Origin: Basidiobolus meristosporus CBS 931.73
Taxonomy: Eukaryota; Basidiobolomycota; Basidiobolomycetes; Basidiobolales; Basidiobolaceae
Assembly (NCBI GenBank): GCA_002104905.1
Contig: MCFE01000211.1
Coordinates: 1 to 64,000, forward strand
Direction of reading: 5' to 3'
Length of the DNA stretch: 64,000 nt
Shown here: piece after piece, positions 1 to 27,294 of the stretch
Numbering within the stretch: the stretch's first letter is position 1
Layout of the letters: every line of letters begins with the position of its first letter
Program-made: the position numbers and the translations under genes
Notes under the pieces: model-generated
What the model was told of the DNA's origin: nothing
The model's input: the letters and a program-made list of their open reading frames with translations, nothing else
Databases searched by the model: none

Positions 1-688
1 GTTATTTCAATATCTTACATGTAATTTGTATTCTTCAATCCGTGAGGTAAAAGCAGCAAAATCACCTAACTTTATAATTGGCTATGGTCAGGAGAGTGGC
101 AGTATTGCGGACTTCTATCTTTTGACTAATACTTTTTGCAACCAAACTTAAATTTAAAATTTGCGGAGTTTGGAACTAGATATATCAAATCAATAGATGT
201 TGGCCTAGTGGAACCGACTAAATCGTCCAATAAATGATCTTTCGGAATATCAGGTTTCTCATGAGCCGATTAATTTAATCACCTAGTCGACTATAATATT
301 GATATGCAATTTGCCCATTTCTCAATAACAATGTCTTATCTGAAATAGCGCTATTGTTTAGCAAAGATCAAGATCAAGTAGAAACAAAGTAGACATGTAT
401 ATTAAGCTGGTCAATCAAGTGAATCGTAGTAACATATGATACAAACTCAAGTTGAGCAGCAAATACTCATCACCTGCCGATCACCGCAAATCCCTAATAT
501 CAAATGGGTTGACGACTAGTGTTTTCAGGTACGAGAACTTGTCTATCAATGAGAAGTTTACGCCAAATAACAAAGAGCCTCTATAGTAAGGAAGATGGTT
601 TTGACGACATGTCTATCTGCACTGTATAAATAGAAGCATTTCTGTGTACGGTTAGCCACAGTTGTCAGAACATACTCGCCTGGCAATA
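1..688. other. upstream non-coding stretch
   Basis: AT-rich sequence with no ORF resembling a protein. It ends at the first ATG of the multicopper oxidase. A TATA-like TATAAAT lies near 626-632, about 60 bases before that ATG, and may be its promoter. Confidence 0.5.
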
Positions 689-3600
689 ATGCTACAGTAT
701 CTGGTTTCTACTAACCGCGCTTACCTACTCGGAGTATGGCTATACTTTTGGCTACTTCCTACTCGAGGCTCGGGAGCCTTTTTCTATCCAAATACCGGCG
801 GATCGCCTATTCTCACGTATCCCAATGCTGAGTTTACACCGGCGGTTTCCAATCTGACCCGGACCTACGAGCGTTCATACGCGGTAACAGCTATTGAGAT
901 GCCCATAGTGTATAATAAGTATGGGGATATCGACACCAATGGTGTAATGTTCACATTGGATCGAAATCGAAGCTATCTGCGAAGGGTTCGTAGCTCGATC
1001 CTCCGACAAATCAAAGAGTCGAAAGTCAGACCGCGTATGGAACCTTTAGTTCGGCCTTTGGTTCTCCGCTGCAATGAGGGAGAGCATATCCATGTTCGCC
1101 TGAAGAACGAAATCAGAGGTCGGCGAGTCAGCCTACATCCTCACCTTTTCGGCCAGGATATAGTGAATGATGGATCAGCAGCGGGGATGAATCCAGACAG
1201 TACAATTGCGTTCAATGAAGAGATACAATATCGCTGGCCATGTTTGAAGGAGGGAACCTACATGCTCTCCAACAATGGAGACTATGACGGAACAGACAAA
1301 GGAACTCACGTGCATGGGTTATTTGCAGCTTTGGTGGTTGAGCCGAAAGGATCTACCTGGACTGATCCGATTACAGGGCAACCTACTGATGACGGAGTTA
1401 TTGCTGATATTCACCCTGCAACGAAATATGGTGGCTGTCCTAAGCGAGGCTTTTATGAGGAAGAAGAAAAATTCACGCATCCCGATTGCTCATTTCGAGA
1501 ATTTGTGGCGATCTTCCATGACGAGACTGACATCAATCATTTCAATGCCCGCTCAATCGACCCATGCACCAACCAAACTGCTAAGCCAGAGCCAATGACC
1601 AACTCGCTCAACTACCGTTCTGAGCCTATGCGCAACCGGCAGTATGTACTCTACGACAAAATTCAACAAGGTGAAAAGCTGAATATCAATGGCGAAGAGC
1701 AGCATCACTCAAGCTGGATGTTTGGCGACCCAGCTACACCGGTATTTCGGGCATACGCTGGTGACCCAGTCAAATTTCGCGTGGTGCATGCCGGGGTTAA
1801 GGAGACTCATGTGTTTCATCTGCATGTGCACCAATGGAGTTCTTTACGTGGTGACCGTGAAAGCCTTACCATCGATTCCTTCTCTCTTTCACCACAAACA
1901 TCTTGGGATCTCGACATTCATTATGGTGCTGGCTCAAGACTGAAGTCGATTGGAGATGTTATTTGGCATTGTCATCTGTATCCGCACTTTGAGACCGGGA
2001 TGTGGGGCATATTTCGGGTGTTGGATCGATTTGAAGACGGAAAAGGAAAATATCCGGACGGAACACCAATTGAGAGATTATCCTCACTACCTACCAGGCC
2101 CCACCCGCCATTAAAGGATAAAGACCACCCAGGCTTCCCAAATTATATTGCGGGCACTGTAGGACGCAAGTCCCCACGAGTCCCATGGCCAGTTCAGCTT
2201 TTCGGTGGAATCCCAGAGGGGTCAGATTATCGGGCCGCTTCCAAGCTAGAGCTACTCAATATGAATCGAGATCCACAAGTAGGAAACCTATTCACACTGA
2301 TCCCTACTCCAAGACAGCCTAAGGTGGTAGAGGCCAATATTACTATAACCTTACGGCACTTCGAATACAACCAGCACGGCTGGCATTATCCCTACGGGCA
2401 TTTGTACATGCTAGAAGAAGAAGAAAAGGAGTCCAACCCGAGAATTCCGAGTAAATTCGAACCATTGGTATTACGAATGAGTGAAAATACTATTGGCATG
2501 AATAAGTTCACGAACAAGCTACCCAGGGTTGTTCCTGCCACTGCTTTCGACGAAGCCTTCCCTCGTTGTGAAGCGCTCAGCCACGCAGGTGAAGCCGGGA
2601 TGCATGTACACCTGGTGAAATTCGATGTGCTGGTTAGCGATGGGGCTTCAGTTGGATGGAACTACATAAGTGGCGCTAGTTTTGGGAAATACCTAATCAA
2701 TCGATGGTGGATCGATGATTCTCTTGGCCACATTTTCTTCCATGACCATCTTTTTGCCAACTATCGCCAAAAGAAAGGGCTTTATGGTCTAGCTCCTGTT
2801 GAGCCGGAGGGTTCAATCTACCTGAATCCCACTGACCTGACTCAGCAACGAAGATCCGGAGTGAGCTCCGTCATTCTAACACCCGACTCGGGGCAATCCT
2901 TCCGAGAGCAAGTTCAGTTCATTGGGGACTTTGCGCCGGCATTTGATGCACAGAACCATCCAATTAATGTTAACAGCGACCCCAACGAGGATCAGGGGAT
3001 CATGGTTTTCAACTACCGCAATGAGCCATTGGTGGAAAGAAGAGATGTGGATCCATCGCAGCAATTTAGCAGCAAAACAAAATATGGAGACCCCTCGACT
3101 ACACTTTTTGAAGCGTACCCCAAGGATAGAATAGTTGTTCGATTGGTGCAAGGCGCACACGAGGAGTCTCATAGCTTCCAGATCCACGGTATGCGGTGGT
3201 CGAGGTTTTTTTCGAATTCTGAAGTGCTGGTGTCAAACCAGCAAACTATCGGCATATCTGAAGGGTTCTCGTTGGATATTGTTCCTGACTACTCTCCAGG
3301 CGACCACCTCTACAAGCTATCTGGTATTGATGATATATGGATCGGATGTTGGGGAATAATCCGAGTTCACCAGGAACCACAAGCACATCTCCCACCCCTT
3401 CCAAATAACAACGACCCATTCGGCCATCATGGACACACCATGCAGTCATCTCCTTACCCAGAGCCTTCCAAATTGCGCGAATACCTGGTAGAGGCGCAGC
3501 AGCGGGTTCTCAACTACAATCATAAGAATTGGACCGACCCCTTCGCCATTGTATACTGCCTCAAGGTTACAAGGAGCCGATGGCAACCGATTGGGTAAAC

Positions 3601-4623
3601 GCTACAGGGAAGCATGATTGCTTCAACTATCACGATGGGCATCTAGAACCATTGATAATTCGCGGTCGTGCTGGAGAGTTTATTCAGGTCCACTTGAAAA
3701 ACAACCTGCCAAAAAAGCTCCATCCGGAGCCATTTGCGCCCCAAGTTCCTGCCGACAACCCTAGACGACAGGTCTCCAGCCATGTTTCTATCCATGCCGA
3801 TCTCCTCTTGTACGATGTTCGTGATGACGACGGAAGCAATGTCGGGCTCAACCCAGATCAAACTATACCACCTGGGCATATCAAGTCATACACCTGGTAT
3901 GCTGACCAACCGTTGGGCCCAGTTCTTCTCCAGGACTTTTCGGATGTGAGAAATCATAAGCACCATGGCTTAGTTGGTGCTCTGGTCATCCTAGGCGCGC
4001 ACGATCAGCCAGCCTCTTGGTACAAGACCGAGACAGATGTATATCACCACAGAGCAACACATTCATATACAAATGAGAAATTTGGAGCGCGCTCGCTGAT
4101 CTACCAAGATAAAGTGTTGATTATTCAAAGCGGCCTGCGTTTATTCGAGAATGGCGCGCTCGACAAACCGATACCGGATCTAGCAATCGATAGAAATGTT
4201 GAGGCTGACGCTGATGATGACTCCACTGGGTTTCCGTTTGTAGACTTCGAGGATCAAGGGCAAAAAGCCTATAATTACCGTAATCACCCAGCTGATGAAC
4301 CGGAATGGTTACGCACCGCTCATCCAGCTACCCATATTTTTGAAGCACAACCTGGTGTGTTGCAGCGCTTTCAAATCGTCGGTGGCCTGGATAAACCGAG
4401 AGCTGTCTCGTTCCATTTACACGGCCATGGTTGGCTCTCTCAGAATGCTCGACCTGGTCGTGAGTTTACCTCCGTAAACAATGCTGTTTCCCCCGGGTTC
4501 GCTCAAACCAACACCTTTTACGCAAGTCAGCATCGTGGTGATTGGGTGTATCGTGATGGCGTTCTTTTCACGAACATCCTTGATGGTTTGTGGGGCTTGT
4601 TCCGAGTCCAGGATTCTTCTTAA
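689..4623 (+). CDS. giant secreted multicopper oxidase (MnxG-like, bacterial type), with an internal frame break
   Basis: Predicted extracellular copper oxidase built of repeated cupredoxin domains, about 1,310 residues if both frames are joined. The reading frame opens upstream, but the first ATG (689) gives a hydrophobic signal peptide (LLGVWLYFWLLP) and is the likely start. Copper-ligand style motifs recur: HPHLFGQD, GTHVHGLF, HVFHLHVHQW, then a full HCH-x3-H-x4-M site (WHCHLYPHFETGMW), later FFHDHLF, HSFQIHG, NHKHHGLV and VSFHLHGHGW. Later repeats lack the HCH box, as expected where only some domains bind copper. The first frame runs to a stop at 3598; homology continues in another frame from about 3570 to 4623 (YKEP... 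to VQDSS). No plausible intron bridges the shift: the only GT..AG there is 23 nt. It is therefore a one-base indel, a sequencing error, a young pseudogene or a recoding site. No introns over 3.9 kb, unlike most neighbours, hints at bacterial origin. The Mn-oxidase substrate is only a family analogy. Confidence 0.75.
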
Positions 4624-13052: not shown

Positions 13053-14246
13053 TTACAAGTGGATCAGGATATCGGGCAAGCAAACCACTGCATCGACCTT
13101 GATGCCAAGTATGTTCGCGTGTGCTTTGATTGTCTCGCAGTACTCTCTACGTCTACCCTCAACATCTTTGCCAAGACTCACATCGTTAATCACTCCGCCG
13201 ATGAGTCTTTTAGGGCTATTGTCACCTCCATGCACGTTGAGATCGACCTTGATGAGGTTGCCAAGACACACTACTGCATCAGCATCAATCCCCAGCAGTT
13301 GACGAACCTTGACTGCAATATCTTCACACCGGCTAACGTCTGAGCCATTCCACTCCTCATCTTGGCCTGTATGGTCGTCAGAAGTATTCGATACATCGGG
13401 GATACTAGGCGAGCCGCGAGTTAGATCCTCAGTCACTCCAGCTGGACTCCCTATTCTATCTGATCCTTTTGACCCATTAATCGACTTGTCCCCCGGTAGT
13501 CCTCCAGCAATATTCTTGACCGTGTCCCCGACCTTGTCACTTGCAGGCCCACTTGGTAATCCATTGTGAGGTCTGGATGTGCCACCAGCACCCAATCCAA
13601 TGCAGATGTTCGCATTGATGCCGAGGAGGTCGGCTTTTGCATCCACAAGGTTTCCATGACATCTATCATTGCCCGATAGATTTGTCTCATCTCCTGACGG
13701 CTGACCACCTGGCTTAGAGGTGTCGTTGTTTGCTGGTGTACCACTGGCATCGCCATCAGTGGAGTGGCTGCCACCCTCATTGTCGTTGGTCAGGTCACCA
13801 TCACCACCAGCTGGCGATCCAGTGTGTGATGGTTGCTCTGGATGGTCAGTCTTCTTGTCATCCCTCTGACCCTCTCCCTTCCTATTATCACCATCATCCC
13901 CTCTGATCCCTCCATTCCTATCTTCAGTGTACTCCCAATCCTCGTCACCATTGTCTGACCCATGCCTGTATCTATCGTCGGAATGCTCGCGTTGATACTC
14001 ACCTCGACGGTGTGAGTCGTACACGAGATTGCCATCAAACCTGTCACTGTGGCGGTAGTCTCTCTCATCCCTGTAGTCAACATCCCGATATCTTTCTCCC
14101 TGGCGGTCATAATCACTCCTGTCATTTCTTGGTCCGTGGCGATCACCTTCCTCAGCAAGAGAGTAATCTCTCTCAGCTACACTAGCAGCTGATATTAGCG
14201 AAGCAGCAGAAAGAATGAACAACAACTGGTACGAGGTAAAATGCAT
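13053..14246 (-). CDS. array copy 1: secreted D/R/Y-rich protein with three Cys-LGI modules
   Basis: Unrecognised secreted protein, 397 aa. A signal peptide (LLFILSAASLISA) is followed by an Asp/Arg/Tyr/Gly-rich stretch to about residue 140, a Gly/Ser/Thr/Asp-rich linker, then three modules of the form C-x18-19-C centred on LLGI or ILGI and followed by a hydrophobic Leu/Ile strand. Six Cys in all suggest one disulphide per module. The linker carries several N-glycosylation sequons (NDT, NLS, NGS, NTS). This copy has the linker form EDRNGGIRGDDGD and lacks some acidic residues of its sisters. No introns. It is the array's leftmost (3'-most) member and has a TATA/upstream-element promoter at 14373-14420. 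Confidence 0.88.
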   Translation of the reverse strand: MHFTSYQLLFILSAASLISAASVAERDYSLAEEGDRHGPRNDRSDYDRQGERYRDVDYRDERDYRHSDRFDGNLVYDSHRRGEYQREHSDDRYRHGSDNGDEDWEYTEDRNGGIRGDDGDNRKGEGQRDDKKTDHPEQPSHTGSPAGGDGDLTNDNEGGSHSTDGDASGTPANNDTSKPGGQPSGDETNLSGNDRCHGNLVDAKADLLGINANICIGLGAGGTSRPHNGLPSGPASDKVGDTVKNIAGGLPGDKSINGSKGSDRIGSPAGVTEDLTRGSPSIPDVSNTSDDHTGQDEEWNGSDVSRCEDIAVKVRQLLGIDADAVVCLGNLIKVDLNVHGGDNSPKRLIGGVINDVSLGKDVEGRRREYCETIKAHANILGIKVDAVVCLPDILIHL

Positions 14247-14372
14247 CGGTGGATGAAGGTTGGATTCTATCTTTAGTTACACACACAAGTTGGCTTTTTA
14301 GCAAGTTAATATCTATACGAAGAGAGAACTAGGGAGAGTACTTGTGCTGAATATTGGCATATAAATCTATCC

Positions 14373-14420
14373 TTTTTATAGCAATTATAGAATGTGCATT
14401 AACGCATTATCAAATCGGGA
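14373..14420 (-). promoter_or_regulatory. copy 1 promoter: TATA box plus upstream element
   Basis: Read on the minus strand: TCCCGATTTGATAATGCGTT, then AATGCAC, then GCTATAAAAAGG. 34 nt separate the TCCCGA motif from the TATA box, which lies about 127 bp before the ATG. Confidence 0.65.
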
Positions 14421-15025
14421 CAAACTCGTGAAAATGGAGTCATAGTCCTTGATACATCTCCGATATCTTACTCATTTCTTGCGAAATCCTGCTTTCATAT
14501 TTATATTCAAGGGAGCACGCCCTCCAGGTTGTGAAATAAGATAATACGTTTTGATACATAATGATTATGATCCTGGCTTGTTACTTGTTGATCGAAGCTG
14601 AGCAGACGAATTTATGTACTACTTCGCTGGCCACCACATTCAATATCAATATTGTTTTGGCCTCACTAACTCAATATACAAGTGTTGACAACTGTTATTC
14701 AATCAAGTACTGGAAGCAAGTAATTCAATGTTATTAGGTCACCGACTCCTAAAATATATAGTTTATTGGATATATCCGTATTTTGAGAAGCAGGTAAATA
14801 TTACAGTCCTTGGGATACAATAACTTTATGCCTGAGCATCATAGGGCGTAATCTCTATACGATCCATTTTCTCAAATGCCTATGTAAATATTTGAGATGT
14901 CAGAATCGTGGTTATTTGCTCATACATCAGTCAACAGTTTATTAGACACTTTTCATTTGGAATGACAGGTATACATTTCGGAGGTGGGGATACAATAACT
15001 CTAGGCGGAAATGAATACCCAGGTA

Positions 15026-16216
15026 TTACAAGTGGATCAGGATATCGGGCAAGCAAACCACTGCATCTACCTTGATGCCAAGTATGCTCGCATGTGCTTT
15101 GATTGTCTCGCAGTACTCTTTACGTCTACCCTCAACATCTTTGCCAAGGCTCACATTGTCAATCACTCCGCCGATGAGTCTTTTAGGGCTATTGTCACCT
15201 CCATGCACGTTGAGATCGACCTTGATGAGGTTGCCAAGACACACTACTGCATCAGCATCAATCCCCAGCAGTTGACGAACCTTGACTGCAATGTCTTCAC
15301 ACCGGCTAACGTCTGAGCCATTCCACTCCCCATCCTGGCCTGTATGGTCGCCAGAAGTATTCGATACATCGGGGATACTAGGCGAGCCGCGATTTAGGTC
15401 CTCGGTCACTCCAGCAGGGCTACCTGGTCCATCCGATCCCTTTGACCCATTGATTGACCTGTCCATTGGTAGTCCTCCAACAATGTTCTTGACCGTGTCC
15501 CCGACCTTGTCACTTGCAGGCCCACTTGGTAATCCATCGTGAGGTCTGGATGTGCCACCAGCACCCAATCCAATGCAGATGTCCGCATTGATGCCGAGGA
15601 GGTCGGCTTTTGCATCCACAAGGTTTCCATGACATCTATCATTGCCCGATAGATTTGTCTCATCTCCTGACGGCTGACCACCTGGCTTGGAGGTGTCGTT
15701 GTTTGCTGGTGTACCACCGGCATCACCATCAGTGGAGTGGCTGCCACCCTCATTGTCATTGGTCAGGTCACCATCACCACCAGCTGGTGATCCAGTGTGT
15801 GGTGACTGCTCTGAGTGACCGGTCTTGTTGTCATCCCTTTGGCCCTCTTCATTTCTACCTTGATCTTTACCATCACTTCTTCTATAGCTGTCATCAGTGT
15901 ACTCCCAATCCTCATCCCCATTGCCTGGTCCATGTCTGTAATTATCCCCGGAGTGCTCATGTTGATACTCACCTCGGCGGTGTGAGTCGTATTCGAGATC
16001 ATCATCAAACCTGCCACTATGGCGGTAGTCTCTCTCATCCCTGTAGTCAACATCCCGATATCTTCCTCCCTGACGGTCATAGTCCCTCCAGTCATCTCTT
16101 GGCCCGTAGCGGTCACCCTCATTTGCAGGTGAGTAATCCCTCTCAGCAACACTAGCGGCTGAGATTACCGAAGCAGCAGAGAGAATGAACAACAACTGGT
16201 ATGAGGTGAAATGCAT
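15026..16216 (-). CDS. array copy 2: secreted D/R/Y-rich protein with three Cys-LGI modules
   Basis: 396 aa, intact, taken as the reference copy. Signal peptide 1-20; D/R/Y-rich 27-130; Gly/Ser/Thr/Asp linker 140-190; module 1 C195-C214 (ADLLGINADIC); linker with NGS and NTS sequons; module 2 C306-C326 (RQLLGIDADAVVC) followed by LGNLIKVDLNV; module 3 C369-C388 (ASILGIKVDAVVC) and a hydrophobic end (DILIHL). The central linker is the second type (SDGKDQGRNEEGQ). Function unknown; the composition suggests a surface or matrix protein. The charged N-terminal half would be disordered and the modules would fold as small units. Confidence 0.9.
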   Translation of the reverse strand: MHFTSYQLLFILSAASVISAASVAERDYSPANEGDRYGPRDDWRDYDRQGGRYRDVDYRDERDYRHSGRFDDDLEYDSHRRGEYQHEHSGDNYRHGPGNGDEDWEYTDDSYRRSDGKDQGRNEEGQRDDNKTGHSEQSPHTGSPAGGDGDLTNDNEGGSHSTDGDAGGTPANNDTSKPGGQPSGDETNLSGNDRCHGNLVDAKADLLGINADICIGLGAGGTSRPHDGLPSGPASDKVGDTVKNIVGGLPMDRSINGSKGSDGPGSPAGVTEDLNRGSPSIPDVSNTSGDHTGQDGEWNGSDVSRCEDIAVKVRQLLGIDADAVVCLGNLIKVDLNVHGGDNSPKRLIGGVIDNVSLGKDVEGRRKEYCETIKAHASILGIKVDAVVCLPDILIHL

Positions 16217-16346
16217 CTGTATATGAAATTTTGGATTCTAACTGCAAGCTCTTTGTGGAATTAGCGTCTTTTAGGTAAGCGAATATCTAAATGGGGAAGA
16301 TAAAGATTTGTTGAGTCTTGTACTGATTCTTAACATGGTTCTCTTA

Positions 16347-16394
16347 TTATATAGCGAATTTAGAGCTGCGCGTTTACGCAACGTCGATTCGGGG
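16347..16394 (-). promoter_or_regulatory. copy 2 promoter: TATA box plus upstream element
   Basis: Minus strand: CCCCGAATCGACGTTGCG, TAAACGCGCAG, then GCTATATAA. Spacing is 35 nt from the CCCGA motif to the TATA box, as in the sister genes. Confidence 0.6.
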
Positions 16395-16853
16395 TTAAAT
16401 CATAGAAAAATTATGGTCCATTGAAACTCTCCGATAAATCGCTCGGCTATTACATTGACCTACTGCTATGGTTTACTGCGGGACTGTCAGTATACAATGG
16501 GAAAAGTATAAGAGTCCCGCAACATAAATTTGTGCACTAAACTCGACATCGTTATTCGAAGTAAAATACACCATATACTGATAAAATTTGAAGTGCATGC
16601 GCGCCTGATTTGGCAAACAAATTCTTGGAAACTTATTTGGTAAATGGCCGACTCCTTACCATCTTATTGTTATTAGCGTTGCCACTATGGCTTTTATGGT
16701 CAGATGACCAAAGCCCCATGTAAGATTATAGAGTATAAGAAATATCTTATAAATTGGTCAATTGTTTATTCGATGGATCATTATTCTGAGAAGCGGGTAT
16801 ATGTTGCTGTTGTAAGGATACAATATTTTTAAGTGGGAATGAATATTCGGGAA

Positions 16854-18044
16854 TTACAAGTGGATCAGGATATCGGGCAAGCAAACCACTGCATCTACCT
16901 TGATGCCAAGTATGCTCGCATGTGCTTTGATTGTCTCGCAGTACTCTCTACGTCTACCCTCAACATCTTTGCCAAGGCTCACATTGTCAATCACTCCGCC
17001 GATGAGTCTTTTAGGGCCATTGTCACCTCCATGCACGTTGAGATCGACCTTGATGAGATTGCCAAGACACACTACTGCATCAGCATCAATCCCCAGCAGT
17101 TGACGAACCTTGACTGCAATATCTTCACACCGGCTAACGTCTGAGCCATTCCACTCCCCATCCTGGCCTGTATGGTCGCCAGAAGTATTCGATACATCGG
17201 GGATACTAGGCGAGCCGCGATTTAGGTCCTCGGTCACTCCAGCAGGGCTACCTGGTCCATCCGATCCCTTTGACCCATTGATTGACTTGTTCATTGGTAG
17301 TCCTCCAGCAATATTCTTGACCGTGTCCCCGACCTTGTCACTTGCAGGCCCACTTGGTAATCCATCGTGAGGTCTGGATGTGCCACCAGCACCGAATCCA
17401 ATGCAGATGTCCGCATTGATGCCGAGGAGGTCGACCTTTCCATCCACAAGGTTTCCATGGCATCTATCATTGCCCGATAGATTTGTCTCATCTCCTGACG
17501 GCTGACCACCTGGCTTGGAGGTGTCGTTGTTTGCTGGTGTACCACTGGCATCACCATCAGTGGAGTGGCTGCCACCCTCATTGTCCTTGGTCAGGTCACC
17601 ATCACCACCAGCTGGTGATCCAGTGTGTGGTGGTTGCTCTGAATGGTCAGTCTTGCTGTCATTCCACTGGCCCTCTTCATTTCTCCCTTGGTTTTTGTCA
17701 TCATTTCTTCCATACCTGTCATCAGTGTACTCCCAATCCTCGTCACCATCGTCTGACCCATGTCTGTACCTATCCCCAGAGTGCTCACGTTGATACTCAC
17801 CTCGGCGGTGTGAGTCGTATTCGAGATCATCATCAAACCTGTCACTGTTACGGTAGTCTCTCTCATCGCTGTAGTCAACATCCCGATATCTTCCTCCCTG
17901 GCGGTTATAATCACTCCAGTCATTTCTTGGTCCATAGCGGTCACCCTCGTTTGCAGGAGAGTAATCTCTCTCAGCAACACTAGCAGCTGAGATTACTGAA
18001 GCAGCAGAGAGAGTTAACAGCAACCGATATGAAGAGAAATGCAT
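16854..18044 (-). CDS. array copy 3: secreted D/R/Y-rich protein with three Cys-LGI modules
   Basis: 396 aa, intact. Same layout as copy 2, with the NDDKNQGRNEEGQ linker type and a signal peptide variant LLLTLSAASVISA. Module 1 has VDGKVDLLGINADIC and a GFGAGG exit instead of GLGAGG. Modules 2 and 3 are essentially identical to copy 2. NDT, NLS, NGS and NTS sequons are kept. No sign of decay. Confidence 0.9.
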   Translation of the reverse strand: MHFSSYRLLLTLSAASVISAASVAERDYSPANEGDRYGPRNDWSDYNRQGGRYRDVDYSDERDYRNSDRFDDDLEYDSHRRGEYQREHSGDRYRHGSDDGDEDWEYTDDRYGRNDDKNQGRNEEGQWNDSKTDHSEQPPHTGSPAGGDGDLTKDNEGGSHSTDGDASGTPANNDTSKPGGQPSGDETNLSGNDRCHGNLVDGKVDLLGINADICIGFGAGGTSRPHDGLPSGPASDKVGDTVKNIAGGLPMNKSINGSKGSDGPGSPAGVTEDLNRGSPSIPDVSNTSGDHTGQDGEWNGSDVSRCEDIAVKVRQLLGIDADAVVCLGNLIKVDLNVHGGDNGPKRLIGGVIDNVSLGKDVEGRRREYCETIKAHASILGIKVDAVVCLPDILIHL

Positions 18045-18171
18045 TGGTGGGTAAAGCCTGGATTTTCACTGCTGTGATACTCTGAAATTAGCGTTCCTGG
18101 TGAAAAATCTCTATCAAGGGAAGAGACAGCTTTGATGACTTAAGTATTGAATTTCAACAAAGTTCTCCGCA

Positions 18172-18219
18172 TTATATAGCAAGTCTTGGCCTGCGCGTTA
18201 ATGTAAGGTCAAATCGGGA
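18172..18219 (-). promoter_or_regulatory. copy 3 promoter: TATA box plus upstream element
   Basis: Minus strand: TCCCGATTTGACCTTACA, TTAACGCGCAG, then GCTATATAATG. 35 nt separate the TCCCGA motif and the TATA box. Confidence 0.65.
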
Positions 18220-18755
18220 TTTATTCGTGAAAATGATACTATAAATGATGCTAAATCTCCCATTGCTTGCCCAATTATTGCAACATATCGAGGAATGAGC
18301 TTTTTGTTAAAGCACTGTTCTTCTCTCGTGACTATAATGTGAAAGGCACGTTCTAACATGGAAAGTTGTGTTTCTCCATTTACGTGCTGGCTATCGAATA
18401 AGCTCAAGTAATGCCTTCACTGTAACGCAACATCCCAGACTTATCCATGCCATGTTGGATTCTGGAGATATGTTAATTAAATGGGAATCGAATTTTCACT
18501 TACTATAAAAATGAATATTATCCAAAGTTGTACTATTGTAATTAGTGTTTAAACTGGTCTGGTGTCCGTAGCTTTAAAAGCAAAATATATAGTCCAAAGA
18601 GATGCCAATGGATATCCAGAAATAGGTATCAAGCTTACGAATTGGAGAGATATTTATTCCATGTGTTATAAAGAAAACTGAAGGGTATACAAAGTGGTGA
18701 ATGCATCGCCGTAACTCTAGTCTAAGCGTGGCAACTGGATGTAGGTAAAATAGTG

Positions 18756-19952
18756 CTACAAGTGGATTAGGATATCTGGCAAACAAACCACTGCATCTAC
18801 CTTGATGCCAAGTATGTTCGCATGTGCTTTGATTATCTCGCAGTACTCTCTATGTCTACCCTCAACATCTTTGCCAAGACCCACATTGTCAATCACTCCG
18901 CCGATGAGTCTTTTAGGGCCACTGTCACCTCCATGCACGTTGAGATCGACCTTGATGAGGTTGCCGAGACACACTACTGCATCAGCATCAATCCCCAGCA
19001 GTTGACGAACCTTGACTGCAATGTCTTCACACCGGCTGACGTCTAAGCCACTCCACTCCCCGTCCTGGCCTGTATGACTGCCGGAAGTATTCGATACATC
19101 AGGAACACCTGTCGAGCCGTGAGTTAGATCCTCAGTCACTCCAGCTAGACTCCCTGTTCTATCTGATCCTTTTGACCCGTTGATCGATTTGTCCCCTGGT
19201 AGTCCTCCAGCAATATTCTTGACCGTGTCCCCGACCTTTTCACTTGCAGGCCCACTTGGTAATCCATCGTGAGGTCTGGATGTGCCGCCAGCACCCAATC
19301 CAATGCAGATGTCCGCATTGATGCCGAGGAGGTCGACCTTTCCATCCACAAGGTTTCCATGACATCTATCATTGCCCGATAGATTTGTCTCATCTCCTGT
19401 CGGCTGACCACCTGGCTTAGAGGTGTCGTTGTTTGCTGGTGTACCACCGGCATCGCCATCAGTGGAGTGGCTGCCACCCTCATTGTCGTTGGTCAGGTCA
19501 CCATCACCACCAGCTGGTGATCCAGTGTGTGGATGTTGCTCTGAATGGTCAGTCTTGCTACCATCCCTCTGGCCCTCTCTCTTGCTATCATCATCACCAT
19601 CATCTCCTCTGATCCCTCTATTCCTGTCTTCAATGTACTCCCAGTCTTCGTCACCATTGTCTGACCCATGTCTGTACCTATCCACGAAGTGCTCACGTTG
19701 ATACTCACCTCGGCGGTGTGAGTCGTACTCGAGATTGTCATCAAACCTGTCACTGTGGCGGTAGTCTCTCTCATCCCTGTAGTCAACATCCTGATATCTT
19801 TCTCCCTGACGGTCATAATCACTCCAGTCATTTCTTGGTCCATAGCGGTCACCCTCGTTTGCAGGAGAGTAATCTCTCTCAGCAACACTAGCAGCTGAGA
19901 TTACCGAAGCAGCAGAGAGAATGAACAACAACTGGTATGAGGTGAAATGCAT
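18756..19952 (-). CDS. array copy 4: secreted D/R/Y-rich protein with three Cys-LGI modules
   Basis: 398 aa, intact. The linker is the first type (EDRNRGIRGDDGDDD). It differs from most copies between modules 1 and 2 (DRTGSLAGVTEDLTHGSTGV) and has SGLDVSRC before module 2, losing the WNGS sequon. Module cysteines and LLGI/ILGI cores are unchanged. Its 5' flank, beyond the coding start, is almost the same as that of copy 6, implying a shared recent ancestor or conversion tract. Confidence 0.9.
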   Translation of the reverse strand: MHFTSYQLLFILSAASVISAASVAERDYSPANEGDRYGPRNDWSDYDRQGERYQDVDYRDERDYRHSDRFDDNLEYDSHRRGEYQREHFVDRYRHGSDNGDEDWEYIEDRNRGIRGDDGDDDSKREGQRDGSKTDHSEQHPHTGSPAGGDGDLTNDNEGGSHSTDGDAGGTPANNDTSKPGGQPTGDETNLSGNDRCHGNLVDGKVDLLGINADICIGLGAGGTSRPHDGLPSGPASEKVGDTVKNIAGGLPGDKSINGSKGSDRTGSLAGVTEDLTHGSTGVPDVSNTSGSHTGQDGEWSGLDVSRCEDIAVKVRQLLGIDADAVVCLGNLIKVDLNVHGGDSGPKRLIGGVIDNVGLGKDVEGRHREYCEIIKAHANILGIKVDAVVCLPDILIHL

Positions 19953-20069
19953 CCGAGAGTATAAGTTGTTCGCTAATTACAGGTATGCTTCACGGCGGAT
20001 GTCTACTAAGATCTACTTAGAAATGATAAGAATCTGATGAATGTTGGTCACTTGCAGAAATTCCGCACT

Positions 20070-20116
20070 TTTTATAGCAACAGTGTTATGCACCATGGTG
20101 CAAGGTTTGATCGGGA
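20070..20116 (-). promoter_or_regulatory. copy 4 promoter: TATA box plus palindromic upstream element
   Basis: Minus strand: TCCCGATCAAACCT, then the perfect palindrome TGCACCATGGTGCA, then GCTATAAAAAG. The TCCCGA to TATA spacing is 34 nt. Confidence 0.65.
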
Positions 20117-20612
20117 CTAGATAGCAATGATTCAACCACAATTCAGAATAAATCTCCATTATCCTGCACATTCATTGTATATTACTGCTGCTAGAACTCA
20201 TAAGAACCACACGTGTAAAATTGAAGTCTCTTCATAGTAAGTCAAAGAATGAACTTGGAAGAATGCTTAAATACAATGGAATATATATACCTTTATTCTG
20301 CCGACACTGAAGTAAATAAATCGATGATGCGATTATAGTAATAATTGGTTACTACTTTGCCAGATGCTGTTATTTATATTTGCTATCGCCTACAGCACTC
20401 ATTCCCCCGGTAGCTATAGGTTGTAGCATCACGAGGTATTTCGAAACATGAGCGATTTTCTCGGATACTGATGTATATATTTGAGATGTCAGAAACGTAG
20501 TTATTCGATTATATATCTGTTAGCAGTTTATTAGATGCTTATCCTTTAGTAGGATGGGTATTTGTTGCGGTAGTGGAATTCAATAACTCTAAGCGGGAAT
20601 GAACATCAGGTA

Positions 20613-21803
20613 CTACAAGTGAATCAGGATATCGGGCAAGCAAACCACTGCATCTACCTTGATGCCAAGTATGTTCGCGTGTGCTTTGATTGTCTCGCAG
20701 TACTCTCTACGTCTACCCTCAACATCTTTGCCAAGACCCACATTGTCAATCACTCCGCCGATGAGTCCTTTATGGCCATTGTCACCTCCACGCACATTGA
20801 GATCGACCTTGATGAGATTGCCAAGACACACTACTGCATCAGCATCAATCCCCAGCAGTTGACGAACCTTGACTGCAATATCTTCACACCGGCTAACGTC
20901 TGAGCCATTCCACTCCTCATCCTGGCCTGTATGGTCGTCAGAAGTATTCGATACATCGGGGATACTAGGCGAGCCGCGATTTAGGTCCTCGGTCACTCCA
21001 GCAGGGCTACCTGGTCCATCCGATCCCTTTGGCCCATTGATCGACCCATCCCCTGGTAGTACTCCAGCAATATTCTTGACCGTGTCCCCGACCTTGTCAC
21101 TTGCAGGCCCACTTGGTAATCCATCGTGAGGTCTGGATGTGCCACCAGCACCGAATCCAATGCAGATGTCCGCATTGATGCCGAGGAGGTCGACCTTTCC
21201 ATCCACAAGGTTTCCATGACATCTATCATTGCCCGATAGATTTGCCTCATCTCCTGTCGGCTGACCACCTGGCTTGGAGGCGTCGTTGTTTGACGGTGTG
21301 CTACTGGTACCACCACCAGTGGAGTGGCTGCCACCCTCATTGTCCTTGGTCAGGTCACCATCACCACCAGCTGGTGATCCGGTGCGTGGTAGTTGCTCTG
21401 AATGGTCAGTCTTGATGTCATTCCTCTGGCCCTCTTCATTTCTCCCTTGGTTTTTGTCATCATTTCTTCCATACCTGTCATCAGTGTACTCCCAATCCTC
21501 GTCACCATTGTCTGACCCATGTCTGTACCTATCGTCGGAGTGTTCGCGTTGATACTCACCTCGGCGGTGTGAGTCGTACTCGAGATCGTCATCATACCTG
21601 TCACTGTTACGGTAGTCTCTCTCATCCCTGTAGTCAGCATCCCGATATCTTCCTCCCTGGCGGTCATAATCACTCCAGTCATTTCTTGGTCCGTAGCGAT
21701 CACCCTCGTTTGCAGGTGAGTAATCCCTCTCAGCAACGCTAGCACCTGAGATTACCGAAGCAGCAGAGAGAATGAACAGCAACTGATACGAGGAGAAATG
21801 CAT
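20613..21803 (-). CDS. array copy 5: secreted D/R/Y-rich protein with three Cys-LGI modules
   Basis: 396 aa, intact. Second linker type (NDDKNQGRNEEGQ). The Gly/Ser/Thr stretch is more diverged here (STGGGTSSTPSNNDASKPGG), which removes the NDT sequon. Module 1 exits with GFGAGG as in copy 3; module 2 is followed by NVRGGDNGHKGLIGG rather than NVHGGDNSPKRLIGG. All six module cysteines are kept. The signal peptide ends VISGAS, a form shared with copies 7 and 8. Confidence 0.9.
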   Translation of the reverse strand: MHFSSYQLLFILSAASVISGASVAERDYSPANEGDRYGPRNDWSDYDRQGGRYRDADYRDERDYRNSDRYDDDLEYDSHRRGEYQREHSDDRYRHGSDNGDEDWEYTDDRYGRNDDKNQGRNEEGQRNDIKTDHSEQLPRTGSPAGGDGDLTKDNEGGSHSTGGGTSSTPSNNDASKPGGQPTGDEANLSGNDRCHGNLVDGKVDLLGINADICIGFGAGGTSRPHDGLPSGPASDKVGDTVKNIAGVLPGDGSINGPKGSDGPGSPAGVTEDLNRGSPSIPDVSNTSDDHTGQDEEWNGSDVSRCEDIAVKVRQLLGIDADAVVCLGNLIKVDLNVRGGDNGHKGLIGGVIDNVGLGKDVEGRRREYCETIKAHANILGIKVDAVVCLPDILIHL

Positions 21804-21932
21804 TTTAGGGCTAAGACCGGATTGTAACTAGCAAATACTTTCTAGAATTGAGGTCTGTTGAGCTGATAAATCACTTTAAAGAGAAGTGAACTTTTGAAAT
21901 TTTGGTGCTCATCCCCTCCATGGTAATTCTAA

Positions 21933-21980
21933 TTTTATAGTGAACCCTCATATGCACATTGACGCTAGGTCAGATCGGGG
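21933..21980 (-). promoter_or_regulatory. copy 5 promoter: TATA box plus upstream element
   Basis: Minus strand: CCCCGATCTGACCTAGCG, TCAATGTGCA, then ACTATAAAATT. 35 nt separate the CCCGAT motif and the TATA box. Confidence 0.6.
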
Positions 21981-22424
21981 GTTATTCATATAAATGATAT
22001 TTTTAGTCTACTTTAATTTCCTATATTCTGCTCAGACATCGTACTGTTCGGATGCATTACCTCATTATTGTGGATCTACACTTCACCAAAGGTTGAACAA
22101 ATACACACACGATCTGTTGAAAGTCTGGAGATAAATATTCATGAGAAAACAATATGGTATTCATTACTTTACCAATCAATTAAATGCACATGATAAATTG
22201 CTAGATCGCGGCATTCTTTTTGTTTGATACTGTCTAGCATTTCCGACTGTAGCATTATCTTATATTCTGCCATTTTTCAAACACCAATAGAAGAGTACAC
22301 AACGTTAAAAAAAGTCGTCTTGTAATTGATTCCGTTTATTATTTAGAGTCCGATCATTCAGAGGGATGGGTATTCATTTCGAGGGGGGGTATAATAACTC
22401 TAGGCGGGAATGAACACCCAGGTA

Positions 22425-23618
22425 TTACAAGTGGATCAGGATATCGGGCAAGCAAACCACTGCATCTACCTTGATGCCAAGTATGTTCGCGTGTGCTTTG
22501 ATTGTCTCGCAGTACTCTCTACGTCTACCCTCAACATCTTTGCCAAGGCTCACATTGTCAATCACTCCACCAATAAGTCTTTTAGGGCTATTGTCACCTC
22601 CATGCACGTTGAGATCGACCTTGATGAGATTGCCAAGACACACTACTGCATCAGCATCAATCCCCAGCAGTTGACGAACCTTGACTGCAATATCTTCACA
22701 CCGGCTAACGTCTGAGCCATTCCACTCCCCATCCTGGCCTGTATGGTCGCCAGAAGTATTCGATACATCGGGGATACTAGGCGAGCCGCGATTTAGGTCC
22801 TCGGTCACTCCAGCAGGGCTACCTGGTCCATCCGATCCCTTTGACCCATTGATTGACTTGTCCATTGGTAGTCCTCCAGCAATGTTCTTGACCGTGTCCC
22901 CGACCTTGTCACTTGCAGGCCCACTTGGTAGTCCATCGTGAGGTCTGGATGTGCCACCAGCACCCAATCCAATGCAAATGTCCGCATTGATGCCGAGGAG
23001 GTCGACCTTTCCATCCACAAGGTTTCCATGACATCTATCATTGCCCGATAGATTTGTCTCATCTCCTGATGGCTGACCACCTAGCTTGGAGGTGTCGTTG
23101 TTTGACGGTGTGCCACTGGCATCACCATCAGTGGAGTGGCTGCCACCCTCATTGTCATTGGTCAGGTCACCATCACCACCAGCTGGTGATGCAGTGTGTG
23201 GTGGTTGCTCTGAATGGTCAGTCTTGTTGCTATCCCTCTGATCCTCGCCCTTCATATCATCAGCATCAATTCCTCTGATCCCTCCATCCCTATCTTCAGT
23301 GTACTCCCATTCCTCGTCACCATTGCCTGACCCATGTCTGTACCTATCCCCGAAGTGCTCACGTTGATACTCACCTCGGCGGTGTGAGTCGTACTCGAGA
23401 TCGTCATCAAACCTGTCACTGTGGCGGTAGTCTCTCTCATCCCTGTAGTCAACATCCTGATATCTTCCTTCCTGACGGTCATAATCCGTCCAGCCATTTC
23501 TTGGTCGGTAGTGGTCACCCTCCTCAACAAGAGAGTAATCTCTCTCAGCAACACTAGCAGCTGAGATTACCGAAGCAGCAGAGAGAATGAACAACAACTG
23601 GTATGAGGTGAAATGCAT
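22425..23618 (-). CDS. array copy 6: secreted D/R/Y-rich protein with three Cys-LGI modules
   Basis: 397 aa, intact. First linker type (EDRDGGIRGIDADDMKGEDQ). The N-terminal start of the charged region (SLVEEGDHYRPRNGW) resembles copy 1, whereas the module half is closest to copy 2. All six cysteines and the LLGI/ILGI cores are present. The 5' flank matches copy 4. Confidence 0.9.
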   Translation of the reverse strand: MHFTSYQLLFILSAASVISAASVAERDYSLVEEGDHYRPRNGWTDYDRQEGRYQDVDYRDERDYRHSDRFDDDLEYDSHRRGEYQREHFGDRYRHGSGNGDEEWEYTEDRDGGIRGIDADDMKGEDQRDSNKTDHSEQPPHTASPAGGDGDLTNDNEGGSHSTDGDASGTPSNNDTSKLGGQPSGDETNLSGNDRCHGNLVDGKVDLLGINADICIGLGAGGTSRPHDGLPSGPASDKVGDTVKNIAGGLPMDKSINGSKGSDGPGSPAGVTEDLNRGSPSIPDVSNTSGDHTGQDGEWNGSDVSRCEDIAVKVRQLLGIDADAVVCLGNLIKVDLNVHGGDNSPKRLIGGVIDNVSLGKDVEGRRREYCETIKAHANILGIKVDAVVCLPDILIHL

Positions 23619-23735
23619 CCGAGAGTATAAGTTGTGCGCTAATTATAGGTAAGCTCTAAAGTGAATATCTACCAAAATCTGTCTAGAGAAGATATGAATC
23701 TGATGAATGTTCGTCACTTACAGGAATCCCACACC

Positions 23736-23780
23736 TTTTATAGCAACAGTGTTATGCACCATGGTGCAAGGTTTGATCGG
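23736..23780 (-). promoter_or_regulatory. copy 6 promoter: TATA box plus palindromic upstream element
   Basis: Minus strand: TTCCGATCAAACCT, then TGCACCATGGTGCA, then GCTATAAAAGG. Same palindrome and 34-nt spacing as copy 4. Confidence 0.65.
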
Positions 23781-24251
23781 AATGAGCTAGTAGAGATTAA
23801 ACGACAATCCAGTATAATTCTCCTTTACCCAGCTCAATCATTATAGTTTGCTGTTTCTACAATTCATAGTAAACATATGCGTCTCGTCAACATGTGAAAA
23901 AAGGCATTTGATATCGATTCAATGAATGATTTAGAAGAATATTTGACTACCCCGAACTATAAAGGGCTGCCATTTTTTGGCATTTTGATCATTTGACGCA
24001 TGCCTTAATTTGAGTAATAACTGGTTACTACTTTGTTGAGTACTTTCTTGTATATTTTAAACTACCAGTAGCACCCATTTCTATAGCAGTTACAAGGTGT
24101 ATTATCTATACGGGCTTTTTTCCCAGTAGCCTATGTACATATTTGAGATGTCAGAATCGTAGTTATTCGTTTATATATCTGTCAGCAGTTTATTGGATGC
24201 TTATCGTTTAGAATGACGGGTATACATTTCGGAGGTGGGGATACAATAACT

Positions 24252-25458
24252 CTAGGCGGAAATGAATAACAAGTGGATCAGGATATCGGGCAAGCAAACC
24301 ACTGCATCTACCTTGATACCAAGTATGTTCGCGTGTGCTTTGATTGTCTCGCAGTACTCTCTACGTCTACCCTCAACATCTTTGCCAAGGCTCACATTGT
24401 CAATCACTCCGCCGATGAGTCCTTTATGGCCATTGTCACCTCCATGCACGTTGAGATCGACCTTGATGAGGTTGCCAAGACACACTACTGCATCAGCATC
24501 AATCCCCAGCAGTTGACGAACCTTGACTGCAATGCCCTCACATCGGCCAGCCTCAGATCCAGTCCAGTCACTGATCTGGCCCGTATTGTCACCGGAAGTA
24601 TTCGACCCATCAGGAATGCTAGGTGAGCCGCGGGTTAGGTCTTCGGACACTCCAGCTGGACTTCCTTGTCCATCTGATCCTTTTGACCCATTGATCAGCT
24701 TGTTCCCCGGTAGTCCACCAGCAATATTCTTGACTGTATCCCCGACCTTGTCACTTGCAGGCCCACTTGGTAATCCATCGTGAGGTCTGGATGTGCCACC
24801 AGCACCCAATCCAATGCAGATGTCCGCATTGATGCCGAGGAGGTCGACCTTTCCATCCACAAGGTTTCCATGACATCTATCATTGCCCAATAGATTTGTC
24901 TCATCTCCTGATGGCTGACCACCTGGCTTGGATGTGTCGTTGTTTGACGGTGTACCACCGGCATCATCACCAATGGAGTGACTGCCACCCTCATTGTCGT
25001 TGGTCAGGTCACCATCACCACCAGCTGGTGATCCAGTGCGTGGTAGTTGCTCTGAATGGTCAGTCTTGCTGTCATCCCTCCGGCCTCCGCCCTTCATATC
25101 ATCACCATCATCTCTTATCCCTCCATTCCTATCTTCAATGTACTCCCAGTCCTCGTCGCCATTGTCTGGCTCATGTCTGTATCTATCGTCAGAGTGCTCA
25201 CGTTGATACTCACCTCGGCGATATGATTCGTACTCGAGATCGATCATCAAACCTGTCACTGTGGCGGTAGTGTCTCTCATCCCTGTAGTCAACATCCCGA
25301 TATCTTCCTTCCTGACGGTCATAATCCCCCCAGTTATTTCTTGGTCCGTAGCGGTCATTTTGATTTGCAGGTGAATAATTTCTCTCAGCGACACTAGCTC
25401 CTGATATTACCGAAGCAGCTGAGAGAATGAATAGCAACCGGTATGAGGTGAAATGCAT
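24252..25458 (-). pseudogene. array copy 7: frameshifted paralogue with lost stop
   Basis: By alignment to its sisters the start is the ATG at 25458-25456 (MHFTSYRLLFIL). The frame breaks near 25240: the run there reads GAGATCGATCATC, where the sisters have GAGATCATCATC or GAGATCGTCATC, a one-base insertion. Translation from the ATG would then stop after about 80 residues. The rest (DLEYESYRRGEYQ to the third module) stays open in another frame, with all six module cysteines. A deletion of about ten bases at the 3' end removes the normal stop, adding LFIS-A after LIHL. It has the GSEAGRCEGIAVK version of module 2 shared only with copy 8. Recent inactivation or a sequencing error are both possible. 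Confidence 0.8.
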
Positions 25459-25590
25459 CTCTAAGTATAAGCTAGGTTCTAACTGTAATTGCACTCTGGA
25501 ATTGATGTTTCTTTGGCGGACAAGATCCTATCTATTTGGAGCAGAGAGAGTTTTGATGAGTTCTACTGATTCGATCATGAATCTTTCCAT

Positions 25591-25637
25591 TTTATAATGA
25601 ACTTTCAGCTGCGCATAAACGCTAGATCAGGCCGGAG
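25591..25637 (-). promoter_or_regulatory. copy 7 promoter: TATA box plus weakened upstream element
   Basis: Minus strand: CTCCGGCCTGATCTAGCGTT, TATGCGCAG, then CATTATAAAATG. The CCGAT core has changed to CCGGC but the 35-nt spacing is kept. Confidence 0.5.
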
Positions 25638-26103
25638 AAAATTCTTGTAAATGACAATAGATATTATATTAAGTCTCCTATATCTTATCGTGCTATCCTA
25701 ACAGGTTACCTTTTCATTGTGGTTCCACGCTCCGCCCATAATTCAGCATAAGTATACACATTCCAACCAAAAATGGGAAATACAAATCAATGAGAAATCA
25801 CCGCTAAGTAGTTGTTGCCTCATCTGTGTAAATATACACGTAAAAGTGTTTGGACTACCCATTCAATCATTCATGATAGTGTCTTGCATCGCTTTTTGTA
25901 TTATTAACATACCTTGGATAATTCGGTGAGTGGACTTCCACGAGACAACACAATATAGTGAGTAACCAGCTCATAAATCACAAAATAGTGGATAAACTTA
26001 TAAGTTGGTCAGTAGTTTATTTGATGCTTATCATTTAGAATGTTGGGTATACATTTCGGAAGTGGGGATACAATAACTCTAGGCGGAAATGAATACCCAG
26101 GTA

Positions 26104-27294
26104 TTACAAGTGGATCAGGATATCGGGCAAGCAAACCACTGCATCTACCTTGATGCCAAGTATGCTCGCATGTGCTTTGATTGTCTCGCAATACTCTCTA
26201 CGTCTACCCTCAACATCTTTGCCAAGGCTCACATTGTCAATCACTCCGCCGATGAGTCCTTTAGGGCCATTGTCACCTCCACGCACGTTGAGATCAACCT
26301 TGATGAGATTGCCAAGACACACTACTGCATCAGCATCAATCCCCAGCAGTTGACGAACCTTGACTGCAATGCCCTCACATCGGCCAGCCTCAGATCCAGT
26401 CCAGTCACTGACCTGGCCCGTATTGTCACCGGAAGTATTCGACCCATCAGGAATGCTAGGTGAGCCGCGGGTTAGGTCTTCGGTCACTCCAGCTGGACTT
26501 CCTTGTCCATCCGATCCTTTTGACCCATTGATCGACTTGCCCCCTGGTAGTCCTTCAGCAATATTCTTGACTGTATCCCCGACCTTGTCACTTGCAGGCC
26601 CACTTGGTAATCCATCGTGAGGTCTGGATGTGCCACCAGCACCCAATCCAATGCAGATGTCCGCATTGATGCCGAGGAGGTCGACTTTTCCATCCACAAG
26701 GTTTCCATGACATCTATCATTGCTCGATAGATTTGTCTCATCTCCTGATGGCTGACCACCTGGCTTAGAGGTGTCGTTTTTTGCTGGTGTGCCACTGGCA
26801 TCACCATCAGTGGAGTGACTGCCACCCTCATTGTCGTTGGTCAGGTCACCATCACCACCAGCTGGCGATCCAGTATGTGGAAGTTGCTCTGAATGGTCAG
26901 TCTTGCTGTCATCCCTCCGGCCCTCGCCATTCATATCATCACTATCATCTCTTATCCCTCCATACTTGTCATCAGTGTACTCCCAGTCTTCGTCACCATT
27001 GCCTGGCCCATATCTGTACCTACCCCCGTAGTGTTCGCGTTGATACTCACCTCGGCGATGTGAGTCGTACTCGAGATCGTCATCCAACCTGTCACTGTGG
27101 CGGTAGTCTCTCTCATCCCTGTAGTCAACATCCCGATATCTTTCTCCCTGGCGGTCATAATCACTCCAGTCATTTCTTGGTCCATGTCTATTACCCTCAT
27201 AGGCGGGGAAGTAATCTCTCTCAGCAACACTAGCGCCTGATATAACAGAGGCTGCGGAAATCAGAAATAACAACTTGAATGAAGTGAGATGCAT
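26104..27294 (-). CDS. array copy 8: secreted D/R/Y-rich protein with three Cys-LGI modules, distinct promoter
   Basis: 396 aa from the ATG at 27294-27292, chosen because it gives the same signal peptide start as the paralogues (MHLTSFKLLFLISAAS). An in-frame ATG 60 nt upstream would add 20 residues before the signal peptide and is unlikely. First linker type (DDKYGGIRDDSDD). The module 2 region is GSEAGRCEGIAVK as in copy 7. All six cysteines are present. It is the array's rightmost member, and the upstream element shared by copies 1-7 is not visible in its 5' flank. Confidence 0.88.
   Translation of the reverse strand: MHLTSFKLLFLISAASVISGASVAERDYFPAYEGNRHGPRNDWSDYDRQGERYRDVDYRDERDYRHSDRLDDDLEYDSHRRGEYQREHYGGRYRYGPGNGDEDWEYTDDKYGGIRDDSDDMNGEGRRDDSKTDHSEQLPHTGSPAGGDGDLTNDNEGGSHSTDGDASGTPAKNDTSKPGGQPSGDETNLSSNDRCHGNLVDGKVDLLGINADICIGLGAGGTSRPHDGLPSGPASDKVGDTVKNIAEGLPGGKSINGSKGSDGQGSPAGVTEDLTRGSPSIPDGSNTSGDNTGQVSDWTGSEAGRCEGIAVKVRQLLGIDADAVVCLGNLIKVDLNVRGGDNGPKGLIGGVIDNVSLGKDVEGRRREYCETIKAHASILGIKVDAVVCLPDILIHL

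Follow-up and report, generated by a model that had tools for sequence, protein, structure and literature searches.

Hydrophobins are defined by a conserved region of eight cysteines and, according to PMC6784888, are reported up to 2018 only from Dikarya, Caulochytrium and, in one case, Mortierella. Chaplins of Streptomyces have a short hydrophobic domain that is secreted and, in most of them, contains two conserved cysteines; they occur in short and long forms and make a surface coat (PMC3079736). The Ustilago repellent Rep1 is processed by Kex2 into water-repellent peptides, and Kex2-processed repeat precursors (KEPs) are recognised by at least three tandem repeats of at least eight residues lying between KR, KK, RK or RR (PMC7329392). 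Here we report an array of eight tandem genes at positions 13053-27294 of a 64,000-nucleotide stretch of Basidiobolus meristosporus CBS 931.73 (contig MCFE01000211.1, positions 1 to 64,000, forward strand), hereafter called the window. The array forms one branch of an apparently undescribed, genome-wide superfamily built on a two-cysteine module. The module, the superfamily and the place of the array within it are new here, and their significance rests on the genome-wide family more than on the eight genes alone.

Analysis of the window confirmed the array, which an earlier note on this DNA had described as eight same-strand, intronless paralogues filling 14 kb; both the coordinates and the open frames agreed. 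All genes lie on the minus strand in the same orientation, and no introns need be assumed, since every intact frame runs uninterrupted from its ATG to its stop codon:

13053..14246, minus strand: array copy 1, intact, 397 residues, three CX18/19C modules
15026..16216, minus strand: array copy 2, intact, 396 residues, three modules
16854..18044, minus strand: array copy 3, intact, 396 residues, three modules
18756..19952, minus strand: array copy 4, intact, 398 residues, three modules
20613..21803, minus strand: array copy 5, intact, 396 residues, three modules
22425..23618, minus strand: array copy 6, intact, 397 residues, three modules
24252..25458, minus strand: array copy 7, broken, with a frame change near codon 73, the usual stop lost and five extra codons
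26104..27294, minus strand: array copy 8, intact, 396 residues from its ATG, three modules

Seven of the eight copies were thus intact and one broken, as the note had it. The intact proteins have 396-398 residues, and copy 2 shares 84-91% identity with the other six. The description of secreted-type proteins of about 396 residues, with a D/R/Y-rich half and a cysteine half, also held: a crude hydropathy measure detected an N-terminal hydrophobic leader of secretion type in all seven intact copies, followed at residues 25-130 by a stretch containing 31-33% D+E, 17-20% K+R and 8-12% Y, with six cysteines downstream of it in each protein.

All cysteines of the seven mature intact proteins fall in three C-x18-C or C-x19-C modules, whose consensus is roughly CxDIVAxLxxLGIxVDAxVCL. 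Those of copy 2 are:

15575..15634, minus strand: module 1 (C195-C214), divergent and weak alone against the module profile (independent E value, i-E, 0.05)
15239..15301, minus strand: module 2 (C306-C326), strong alone against the module profile
15053..15112, minus strand: module 3 (C369-C388), after which comes a short C-terminal tail, LPDILIHL

Module 1 was assigned because of its cysteine spacing and LGI core, its profile score being weak. Judged from its sequence, the module is strongly amphipathic and strand-like in its second half; positions 13-19 alternate between hydrophobic and polar residues, with a clear 180-degree signal over 94 distinct CX18C modules. The two bounding cysteines of each module probably form one disulphide.

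The module is spread over the genome from which the window was taken (89,006,234 bases in 1311 contigs; locus counts are lower bounds). A search with copy 2 found distant relatives on contigs C1268, C587, C1003 and C847 (E 2e-8 to 5e-3), and searches with three such relatives, at E up to 1, extended the family to 19 contigs. When neighbouring places were merged, 50 clusters resulted, two of which contained the eight genes of the window between them; counted singly, there were about 56 gene-sized loci. Nine of these lie on apparent second-copy contigs, leaving about 47. The second-copy contigs are C1148, C295, C875 and C124, for which the compared pairs were 96-99% identical, and C200, assigned by equal scores only. 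The genes on C587 and C847 (L019 and L021), 80% identical, were tallied separately and may be paralogues. The weakest locus, on C431 (E 0.06-0.16), was retained because modules are present in its sequence, and the loci on C968 and C707 were counted from their search matches. Further tandem sets were found on C602 (10 genes), C946 (7), C448 (6, in alternating orientation), C1005 (3) and C455 (3).

We delimit the superfamily by a leader followed by at least two CX18-20C modules with an LGI core, and the array proteins belong to it. A profile built from rows outside the window matched all eight array frames and no others among 750 open frames of the window (E 3e-20 to 3e-18), and none of the 750 reversed frames, so that the array is not a chance match.

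Architecture was compared in 31 proteins, namely the seven intact array copies and 24 others with both ends, at least four near-identical pairs included. They contain 178 modules, and CX18-20C units account for 356 of the 397 cysteines beyond residue 25; the remaining 41 are found in four C448 proteins (40) and in the C431 protein (1). The number of modules per protein ranges from 2 to 22, the latter in relative L030. Spacers are of several types, being rich in G/D/S/R in the array, P/G/A on C1268, D/K on C587 and C847, G/N on C1005 and C875, G/R/N in C1005c and G/P/K on C448. Mean hydropathy was +0.78 to +1.16 for modules (+0.21 for C431) and -0.21 to -1.60 for spacers. In 23 of the 31 proteins, the stop falls 3-10 residues past the last cysteine. 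The module is probably the functional unit, because the smallest members examined (C946, 124 amino acids) consist of little beyond a leader, a short spacer and two modules. Paralogue L018 on C1268, outside the array, resembles the array proteins in its leader (by eye), its last two modules and its C-terminal tail, but differs in having four modules and a P/A/G-rich spacer that replaces the D/R/Y-rich stretch.

Several family loci showed irregularities. The six C448 genes (C448:15426-26630) include one, at 21487-22439, split over two open frames. The pairs L025/L028, L032/L040, L033/L034 and L054/L055 have 96-99% protein identity on paired contigs and are possibly diploid haplotypes. L029 (C875:1-2966), the counterpart of the 22-module C1005 gene, is spread over several open frames, possibly through a sequencing or haplotype difference.

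The earlier note recognised no known family and named a strong profile match among the findings that would count against its reading; Pfam, NCBIfam and PDB sequence searches gave none. No Pfam family matched three array proteins at E up to 1, and copy 2 matched nothing in NCBIfam or among PDB sequences. The module profile gave only weak, partial matches in PDB, of which helicase NS3 was rejected (16 of 29 positions, E 0.09). When 45 module pairs were scanned against Pfam at E up to 10, no model was matched by more than three of the 45 (DUF2583, best E 0.04), and the lowest E of any family, 0.0075, came from a single member. Among 13 relatives scanned with Pfam, only L030 exceeded a cut-off, scoring 44.6 bits for DUF2583 (PF10762; cut-off 27) and 39.5 bits for GPHH (PF16905; cut-off 26.8) with no single stretch significant, probably because repeated weak matches sum. 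A match of L018 to the IgA-binding BAC protein in NCBIfam (E 6.8e-21 over five stretches), which at 73.9 bits fell short of the cut-off of 1700, was taken as a proline-rich repeat match and rejected. Scans of viral contigs, prokaryote genomes, plasmids and phages contained no family relatives, and no description of the module family was found in the abstracts and excerpts of the open library. The earlier suggestion of an undescribed system stood in that no family among those searched was recognised, but not as a stand-alone system, since the array is one of several tandem arrays of a genome-wide family.

Selection was assessed over the 21 pairs of intact copies. Mean synonymous divergence (dS) was 0.204 and mean non-synonymous divergence (dN) 0.067, a ratio of 0.33 with pairs ranging from 0.25 to 0.61; values near 1, which the note had named as evidence against its reading, were not observed. 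Copy 8 was the most divergent at synonymous sites (dS 0.27-0.33 against the others). By region, dN/dS was 0.14 in the leader, 0.37 in the D/R/Y part with the first linker and module 1, 0.28 in the second linker, 0.13 in module 2, 0.70 in the third linker and 0.10 in module 3. The two C-terminal modules are thus the most constrained regions, and antigen-type diversification was rejected, as dN/dS nowhere exceeded 0.70. The dS was 0.33-0.48 in the first 130 codons and dropped to 0.07-0.25 thereafter, suggesting that the later part of the genes has been homogenised by gene conversion.

In a simple, substitutions-only neutral simulation run on copies 2 and 5, copies still open amounted to 25-30% at 0.03 substitutions per site, 9-11% at 0.05 and 1.6-1.7% at 0.10, against seven of eight observed. 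Together with the dN/dS values, this indicated that the copies are probably maintained by selection, as the note had supposed, and a neutral pseudogene array was rejected. The note's choice between dosage and diversity can be narrowed in part: diversity is disfavoured by dN/dS values of at most 0.70 and by the constraint on the C-terminal modules, whereas dosage is plausible, though codon usage is about that of the neighbours.

The seven intergenic stretches (621-779 bases each) were identical at 42-57% of aligned bases, with one pair at 72%, compared with 35-44% for unrelated flanks in the same alignment. An assembly artefact or echo is unlikely, the intergenic stretches being far more diverged than the coding parts. 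An element upstream of copy 2 lies within one of these stretches:

16348..16353, minus strand: TATA-type element of copy 2, 137 bases 5' of the ATG, a consensus match only

An equivalent element, again by match to consensus only, was present 104-138 bases upstream of the ATG in all eight copies, and an alignment of seven upstream regions (copy 8 excluded) placed it amid otherwise strongly diverged DNA.

Long polar chains that carry hydrophobic modules point to amphiphiles able to assemble on a surface or to bind it. We tentatively propose, with somewhat less than even confidence, that the array proteins act outside the cell as amphiphilic 'block copolymers', coating surfaces or binding to them. 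Each protein, formerly including that of copy 7, has a secretion-type leader, three hydrophobic modules and a long, strongly polar spacer that is probably disordered and is first D/R/Y-rich, then G/D/S-rich. After secretion, the modules may associate with one another or with hydrophobic or wall surfaces, and the polar spacers would remain hydrated, so that the proteins form a coat on hyphae or spores. Subfamilies would adjust this coat through spacer type and module number, and the copies would be retained for dosage, partly homogenised by gene conversion.

A number of observations weigh against this proposal. Codon adaptation of the array genes (0.36-0.38) was about that expected from the neighbourhood (0.35-0.36); a coat should be expressed very strongly, and codon usage gives no hint of this. 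Among 11 other members, the excess over expectation was 6-12 simulated standard deviations for L018, L030, L031 and L046, about three for L026 and L033, and below two for the other five; the measure is rough, since its reference set comprised only five genes, for two of which the longest open frame was used, and EF-1alpha itself reached 0.53. It may be that the array acts at a particular stage, or that its contribution is smaller than that of its relatives. Polar spacer makes up about 85% of every array protein, in contrast to compact hydrophobins, and each of the four C448 proteins examined contains a further 9-11 cysteines that lie in no module. Taken alone, module 1 of the array scores weakly (i-E 0.05-0.51), in contrast to modules 2 and 3, which are strong alone.

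The first half of the module (positions 2-12) is compatible with helix or strand; because S/T-C-P-D commonly caps helices and L-G-I commonly ends them, these motifs would point to a helix-strand arrangement. Two AlphaFold runs drew on 64 non-redundant rows derived from 113 distinct module pairs, the first taking 43 of these together with two more copies from the window, 45 rows in all, and the second 41. Neither gave a confident fold, with a mean predicted local distance difference test (pLDDT) score of 47.0 and 50.8, and the two models disagreed, one having a helix plus strands and the other hairpins.

A surface coat nevertheless remains the best single guess, a little short of an even chance, ahead of adhesion, matrix filling, host-interaction diversity and a KEP precursor. 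The strongest of these alternatives, although unlikely, is that the proteins are adhesins that allow conidia or gut cells to stick, with polar spacers serving as stalks and modules attaching to the surface of a host or substrate such as gut wall, insect cuticle or chitin. A stalk with repeated modules and spacers of variable type and length would suit such a role, and a fasciclin-type cell-adhesion gene group, of a different family, is described as enriched in B. meristosporus and proposed for host residency (PMC5954228), so that adhesion is a plausible need. Against this, the last 14 residues of the 31 proteins, read by eye, contain no clear tail of the glycosylphosphatidylinositol type; in most proteins they close the last module and are hydrophobic in part, with charged positions among them, and in C295, C602 and C448 proteins they are polar. 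The ceiling of 0.70 on regional dN/dS gives no sign of ligand or immune escape evolution, and the over-cut-off Pfam matches include no known binding domain with a significant stretch.

Less probable still, we believe, is a filler of the wall or extracellular matrix, cross-linked into the wall or spore matrix by disulphides and the tyrosine-rich half, with spacers acting as elastic chains. The tyrosine content of residues 25-130 and the silk- or wall-like low-complexity spacers of relatives (G/N, P/A/G) are in keeping with this idea, but tyrosine is outside the top five spacer residues in all 24 relatives listed, and conservation lies in the hydrophobic module, not in the spacer. The window also contains two overlapping multicopper-oxidase frames in different phases (662-3598 and 3529-4623, plus strand), which may belong to a single gene interrupted by an intron or by a break in the frame; such oxidases are a common family, however, and their link to cross-linking is a guess.

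Improbable, too, is a set of secreted, effector-like host-interaction proteins retained as a diversity array. Tandem duplication, a secretion-type leader and many copies fit this explanation, as does the gut association of Basidiobolus, which includes opportunists (PMC7466969, PMC8588673), yet the pattern of selection is purifying and not diversifying, synonymous divergence falls past codon 130, and relatives in which glycine-rich spacers join as many as 22 modules have a structural look. Finally, KEPs cut at dibasic sites to release small peptides can be set aside as highly improbable: dibasic sites flank the module 2-3 stretch in several copies and CBS 931.73 is the strain for which the largest number of KEPs, 43, is reported (PMC7329392), but the array proteins lack the repeats that define the class, only RR80 is present in all seven when all four dibasic types are listed, copies 5 and 8 lack the site at 345-347, and copy 4 lacks the one at 364-366.

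If the surface-coat reading is extended to the whole family, a class of coat proteins unrelated to hydrophobins may have evolved in an early-diverging lineage where hydrophobins are undetected, a possibility that we regard as rather doubtful. One 20-residue, disulphide-bounded module would be strung 2-22 times with interchangeable spacers over about 47-56 genes, and spore, hyphal and matrix surfaces would be tuned by dosage and spacer swapping. Aerial and forcibly discharged spores are also produced by early-diverging fungi, yet hydrophobins are reported almost only from Dikarya (PMC6784888). Family size, a simple module and members as small as 124 residues make the family a directly testable coat candidate, and a natural set of spacer-swapped modular proteins would be of use for materials work.

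Other genes of the window and genome are as follows. Two very similar inverted genes lie at 56198-57112 (plus strand) and 58398-59324 (minus strand), with a cysteine-rich N-terminus that we take to resemble a fungal Zn2Cys6 regulator; Pfam gave no match for the pair at E 0.001. Besides EF-1alpha (L076), the genome contains five EF-like frames with the same domain score, on C420, C749, C1132 (two) and C621, and one of the five, L078, is presumably EFL. Basidiobolus is described as unique, one diatom apart, in possessing both EF-1alpha and EFL (PMC3281927). In keeping with this genus, two actin primers given in PMC3281927 for Basidiobolus ranarum fit L083 without a mismatch; of four EF-1alpha primers, two fit L076 with 2-3 mismatches, and the remaining two, at 5 and 8 mismatches, fit it no better than expected by chance.

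Like Rep1 and other Kex2-processed proteins, the array proteins are secreted repeat proteins, but regularly spaced, conserved dibasic sites between repeats are lacking. Hydrophobins (PF01185, PF06766) are likewise secreted, cysteine-paired, hydrophobic and often multicopy. They carry two CC doublets, whereas the seven intact array proteins have no CC and their six cysteines occur only as CX18/19C pairs. No hydrophobin match was obtained in Pfam for three array proteins (E up to 1) or for the 45 module pairs. A genome search with both hydrophobin models gave nothing over cut-off and one sub-threshold match (E 0.12); prokaryotic control genomes were silent, so this search does not show absence. 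Chaplins have in common with the module family a short secreted hydrophobic two-cysteine domain and short and long forms, but are bacterial and have a different sequence motif, and their family was not among the Pfam results for the 45 module pairs (E up to 10). Collectively, the array proteins would belong to neither group, and may have reached, with an unrelated module, a working principle resembling that thought to operate in hydrophobins and chaplins.

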